Shown: positions 23,853 through 25,214 of the stretch, piece after piece
Position numbering within the stretch: the stretch's first letter is position 1
Layout of the letters: every line of letters starts with the position of its first letter
Assembly: GCA_025060505.1 (NCBI GenBank)
Contig: JANXBU010000005.1
Coordinates: 62,001 to 126,000 of the forward strand
Source of the DNA: Candidatus Calescibacterium sp.
Lineage (GTDB): Bacteria; Calescibacteriota; Calescibacteriia; Calescibacteriales; Calescibacteriaceae
Direction of reading: 5' to 3'
Length of the DNA stretch: 64,000 nucleotides
Notes under the pieces: generated by a model
Database searches by the model: none
Told to the model about the DNA's origin: nothing
Seen by the model: only the letters and a program-made list of their open reading frames with translations
Translations under genes and position numbers: made by a program

Positions 23853-25214
23853 TTACTTTGCTTTCACATATTTTTTTATCATCCTATACAGAGTAGATCT
23901 GGGAATACCAGATTCTTCAATCATTTTCTTTACATCACCGTTTTTCTCTTTGTAAAGTGATATAATATAGTTTCTTTCGAAGTCCTCAAGAAATCTGTTT
24001 CTCATCTCAAAAAATTTACTTTTTATTTTTTGGCTCTCTTCTTTAATCGTAATAAGTTGTTCCGGAAGGTCTTCCAGTTTTATAAAATCTGACTCGGATA
24101 ATATGATAGCTCTCTTTATTGCATTTTGCAACTCTCTAACATTTCCTGGCCAGTTGTAAGAAAGCATAGATTCTAGAGCCTGCGGACTTATCCCAGAGAC
24201 TCTCTTCCCAAGCTCCTCAGAATACTTATTCAAAAAATACTCCGCAAGCGCTTCTATATCTTCTTTTCGTTCTCTCAAAGGAGGTATGTGTATTCTGAAA
24301 ACATTTATTCTCCAGTACAGATCTTCTCTGAATTTTCCTTTTTTGATTTCTTCCTCTACATTCTTGTTTGACGCACATATAATTCTCACATCAACAGATA
24401 TCTCCTGATTTCCTCCTACTTTTCTTATTCTTCTCTCCTGTATAAATCTGAGAAGCTTTACTTGTATATCTGTACTGACCTCTGTTATCTCATCAAGAAA
24501 GACTGTTCCTTTATTAGCAAACTCTATAAGCCCAATTTTTGTTGCTCGAGCATCTGTGAAAGCTCCCTTTTCGTATCCAAAAAGTTCCGACTCAACAAGT
24601 GTTTCCGGTATAGCAGAAAGATTTATTGCAACAAATCTGTTATCTCTTCTATTACTCATTCTGTGTATAGTTCTTGCAACAAGCTCCTTTCCAACCCCAC
24701 TTTCTCACGTTATGAGTATATCACAATCTGTTGAACTTACCTTCCTAATCCCCTCAACAACTTTCTTCATCTTTTCACTTCTGAAAACTATATCTTCAAA
24801 CTCGTATTTTCTTTCCAAATGTGTTTTCAGCAGGACATTTTCTTCTTTCAGATCTAAAAACTCCCGCGCTCTCTTCACAACTGAAACAAGATACTCTGGT
24901 GTAAATGGCTTTATGAGATAGTCAAAAACAGAAACTTTTATCGCTCTTACAGCTGAATCCAAAGAAGGATACTCAGTCATAAGTATTATAGCAGATGTCG
25001 GATTACTTTCTCTTATCTTTTCAGCAAGCTCAAGAACGTCTATCTTTGGTATGGAGAGATCAAGAATATATATATCATATTTCTGATTGTATGAAATAAC
25101 ATTCTGTGCATTACTCTCAGTATCTACCTTAAAACCTTCTTTTTCTAAAACATTTTTTGAAACTTCAAGTATTTCCCTTTCATCATCAACTATGAGAATG
25201 CTTTTCATCTCCAT
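23853..25214 (-). pseudogene. NtrC-family sigma-54 response regulator interrupted by one in-frame TGA
   Basis: A receiver domain (acid pocket near Asp10-Asp11, phospho-acceptor Asp52 in YILDLSIP, Lys in LIKPF) runs into an AAA+ domain and a C-terminal Fis-type helix-turn-helix ([14 protein letters not shown]). The frame is continuous except for a TGA at 24705-24707. The reading there is ILIT[18 protein letters not shown], so the stop sits where the family has the first Gly of the P-loop (GESGxGKE); a GGA codon would need one G-to-T change. The downstream part has its own ATG at 24659 and the GAFTDA variant of the GAFTGA sigma-contact loop, Walker B GTVFLDEI, and no other damage. It could be a recent pseudogene, a sequencing error, or a read-through gene. 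Functional loss is inferred. Confidence 0.8.

Follow-up and report, generated by a model that had tools for sequence, protein, structure and literature searches.

A lone in-frame TGA at the Walker A glycine of an NtrC-type regulator gene in Candidatus Calescibacterium is best read as an ordinary loss-of-function stop

Results

An NtrC-type regulator gene interrupted at the Walker A motif

The window is the whole 64,000-nucleotide stretch of Candidatus Calescibacterium sp. DNA that was analysed, positions 62001-126000 of contig 71 in a draft genome of 2.28 Mb (115 contigs, 86% complete). On its minus strand, from 25214 to 23853, lies a regulator gene of 453 codons when it is read across one internal stop. 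The features of the locus are as follows.

23853-25214, minus strand: interrupted gene for an NtrC-type response regulator and sigma-54 activator (translation, Pfam and NCBIfam matches, four same-family orthologues)
24705-25214, minus strand: N-terminal ORF of 169 aa, receiver and linker, ending at the premature TGA (ORF listing, PF00072)
24705-24707, minus strand: premature TGA, codon 170, at the first glycine of the Walker A motif GESGVGKE (translation, homologue alignment)
23853-24704, minus strand: remaining AAA+ domain, lid and Fis-type helix-turn-helix 3' of the stop (PF00158, PF25601, PF02954)
23853-24659, minus strand: ORF that starts at the first ATG behind the stop (ORF listing)

The first-pass annotation had described a continuous NtrC-type frame broken only by this TGA, with the stop exactly at the P-loop glycine and the rest of the AAA+ domain and the helix-turn-helix intact. 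Translation of the minus strand bears this out, since the TGA is the single lesion of the frame and every one of the 98 aligned homologues carries glycine in the column that it occupies. The receiver domain is matched before the stop (PF00072, 6.4e-24), and behind it Sigma54_activat is matched from profile position 30 to its end (PF00158, 3.5e-60), followed by AAA_lid_14 (PF25601) and HTH_8 (PF02954). Only when the gene is read across the stop do receiver, Sigma54_activat, lid and Fis helix-turn-helix stand in one frame, and no translated product contains an intact Walker A motif, the TGA occupying its first glycine. The likely product of the gene is the 169-aa ORF of receiver and linker. The best NCBIfam match of the read-through protein is AtoC at 415.7 bits, under the 714-bit cut-off, and the next-nearest families, PEP-CTERM regulators and NtrC, also fall under their cut-offs.

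That a homologous frame stays open over so great a length on either side of a single stop is far beyond chance, and the GC content by codon position is coding-like in both parts. The position of the stop is less striking than it appears. In the regulator gene a single substitution would turn any of 181 codons into a stop, and about 11.5% of them, or about one in nine, lie at sites conserved in at least 97% of homologues; a stop at a strongly conserved site is therefore no great coincidence. Genes for a YchF-type GTPase and a nucleoside phosphorylase flank the regulator gene, which stands by itself. The genome also encodes sigma-54 (PF04552, 4.2e-47) and four further AAA+ sigma-54 activators, all of them free of an internal stop.

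TGA is a regular stop codon in this genome

That TGA is a normal stop for many genes here, and that general recoding is accordingly unlikely, had been claimed in the first-pass annotation, and both statements are upheld. A 511-kb sample of the genome contains 315 ORFs of 200 aa or longer, of which 114 end in TGA (36%), 126 in TAA and 75 in TAG, and the next in-frame stop is equally distant after TGA as after the other two codons (Mann-Whitney p = 0.88). Release factor RF2 is encoded (prfB, 482 bits, above the cut-off). The tRNA set of the 86%-complete genome comprises 46 genes with 44 anticodons, and none of the 46 has a UCA anticodon or would otherwise read UGA.

These results bear first on a genome-wide reading of TGA as glycine. 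Such a code (table 25) occurs in Gracilibacteria and Absconditabacteria (PMC8629427), and the likeness lies in the TGA at an invariant glycine position. The species there that use UGA as a stop retain RF2 and are without tRNA-Gly(UCA) (PMC8629427). The genome studied here differs from the table 25 code and fits the pattern of the UGA-as-stop species: RF2 is kept, TGA is a regular stop with no open extension behind it, tRNA-Gly(UCA) was not found among the 46 tRNAs, and the 511-kb sample showed no second gene recognisably broken by TGA. A genome-wide glycine code is thus contradicted, and we regard it as scarcely credible. As far as sequence allows, TGA reassignment is excluded.

Local read-through or recoding, by which an amino acid would be placed at the TGA and some full-length activator made, is a separate matter. 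The downstream frame is open and conserved, and it has been argued that in-frame stops of bacterial genes are sometimes read through (PMC7918605). The authors of that work also caution that artefacts may account for many candidates and that such stops tend to be short-lived, and their main criterion is a stop common to related species (PMC7918605), which the relatives compared here do not have. The machinery speaks against read-through as well. Selenocysteine at the TGA was rejected, as all matches to the SelB profile are below the cut-off, the best being taken to be an ordinary elongation factor, and the sole, marginal match above the tRNA-Sec cut-off is tRNA-Ser(UGA). A near-cognate mechanism through a tRNA-Trp with a 4-bp anticodon stem has been described (PMC13092985) and is not indicated here, where the stem has the normal 5 bp; near-cognate reading would in any case be expected to place a bulky residue in the P-loop. 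Folding of the RNA behind the stop is no stronger than that of shuffled sequences (z = +1.41 and -0.22), which gives no sign of a recoding structure. Local read-through is therefore very improbable, and its chance together with that of recoding in general is hardly larger. Slighter again is the chance that the TGA is a kept regulatory stop, at which low-level read-through would supply a small amount of full-length activator alongside free receiver in excess.

A second lone nonsense codon in the same draft

The 511-kb sample was also searched for other interrupted genes by reading a mechanical listing by eye, a scan by codon usage being too weak to be useful. One further case was recognised. 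A lone in-frame TAG on the minus strand of contig 27 (64049-64051, or L141:4049-4051) splits a gene for an FAD oxidoreductase that resembles L-2-hydroxyglutarate oxidase. The two halves match the DAO oxidoreductase profile at positions 1-68 and 81-312, and the gene is uninterrupted in the same-family genome G002. The remaining entries of the listing seemed to be adjacent genes or frames open by chance. The TAG-broken gene shows the same lone-stop pattern as the regulator gene, so isolated nonsense codons in this draft are confined neither to TGA nor to glycine, and this is a further argument against read-through.

The same observation lends weight to the main rival of a genuine mutation, namely that the stop is absent from living cells and reflects either an erroneous consensus or the assembler's choice of an allele from a minority strain. 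The source is a draft metagenome genome, and the frame around the TGA is otherwise intact. Against an error stand the lack of any direct sign of one, the finding of only two such interruptions in 511 kb, and the apparent loss of the partner kinase (see below), which would be an independent biological reason for decay. We consider an error or strain mixture a serious possibility, though an unlikely one.

Relatives and the partner kinase

Comparison with relatives had been proposed in the first-pass annotation. Orthologues from four same-family genomes (G001-G004; 55, 50, 50 and 47% identity, too distant for dN/dS) are all uninterrupted, and the stop is not common to them. A TGA reported in the G019 homologue proved to be the natural end of that gene, and an exact DNA search in viral contigs gave no match.

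In G001, G003 and G004 a membrane histidine-kinase gene lies directly upstream of the regulator gene, and in G002 a histidine kinase is present but unlinked to it. The four kinase genes of the family relatives are:

L135:10443-11789, membrane histidine kinase gene
L198:1531-2838, membrane histidine kinase gene
L137:10908-12239, membrane histidine kinase gene
L200:1492-2877, membrane histidine kinase gene

The histidine kinase of G002 has a PilS-like transmembrane match. Searches with one kinase and with a profile of four sequences found no full-length counterpart in the 86%-complete genome of the window, where only generic catalytic kinase cores were matched, and no remnant of a kinase gene was found within the window. 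At this completeness the absence suggests a loss. The missing kinase may instead lie in the unassembled 14%, which we count against the explanation preferred below.

Signs of decay

At 5 of 69 conserved sites the read-through protein differs from the consensus, a larger share than in any other of the 99 sequences; this and the receiver change G60V speak for inactivation. The family relatives themselves carry 3-4 such changes, and four of the five also occur in at least one of them, which counts against decay. Relative-rate counts depend on the outgroup: one pair gave 31 versus 15, whereas others gave 19 versus 18, 21 versus 19, 52 versus 43 and 40 versus 47, and an acceleration is not robust. 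An intact, coding-like frame with no robust acceleration implies that the lesion is recent, or not real.

The receiver keeps its acidic pocket, the phosphorylated aspartate, and the conserved T and K, as would be expected if the truncated 169-aa protein were itself retained as a stand-alone receiver or phosphate sink. It also carries G60V, which is absent from the family relatives, its conserved T is followed by an unusual E, and no partner kinase was found for it. Moreover, the sequence behind the stop is undrifted, and the truncation is therefore too recent to show selection for a retained receiver. Such retention is improbable, if less so than read-through.

Discussion

Everything that could be tested says that the TGA is an ordinary loss-of-function stop, arising from a recent mutation or a consensus error, and not recoding or programmed read-through. 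Of the three origins offered in the first-pass annotation, a recent pseudogene and an assembly error thus stand, and read-through finds no positive support. A consensus error would look the same as a nonsense mutation, and sequence does not separate a pseudogene from an error.

We think it probable that one recent nonsense mutation inactivated this NtrC/AtoC-type regulator gene, whose kinase has probably been lost, and left a receiver-only fragment. Translation would start at 25214, proceed through receiver and linker and end at the TGA, where RF2 would terminate it in the normal way. A working AAA+ ATPase would not result, because the rest could be re-initiated only downstream of the Walker A motif, the first ATG behind the stop being at 24659. 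With the histidine kinase probably lost in this lineage, loss of the regulator would have been of little cost. Three elements of this account are inferred: the presence of the mutation in living cells, the true absence of the kinase and the lack of any read-through.

Recent bacterial pseudogenes interrupted by a nonsense codon likewise have one stop, an otherwise intact frame and uninterrupted orthologues, and the regulator gene differs from them only in the striking P-loop position of its stop. The stop in this gene matters little on its own. The case illustrates that a stop within a well-known motif may mimic recoding, and which checks settle such cases: stop usage, the tRNA set, the release factor, relatives and the other interrupted genes of the genome. 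If the preferred explanation is true, the locus records a stage at which an uncultured lineage is losing a two-component system.

With NtrC/AtoC-type sigma-54 response regulators (bacterial enhancer binding proteins) the gene shares the domain order of receiver, AAA+, lid and Fis-type helix-turn-helix. It differs from them in the break at Walker A and in the sigma-54 contact loop (24549-24566, minus strand), which reads GAFTDA instead of GAFTGA. Decay of the GAFTGA motif was rejected, as GAFTDA is also found in the G002 orthologue; it occurs in some distant activators (L018, L031) as well.
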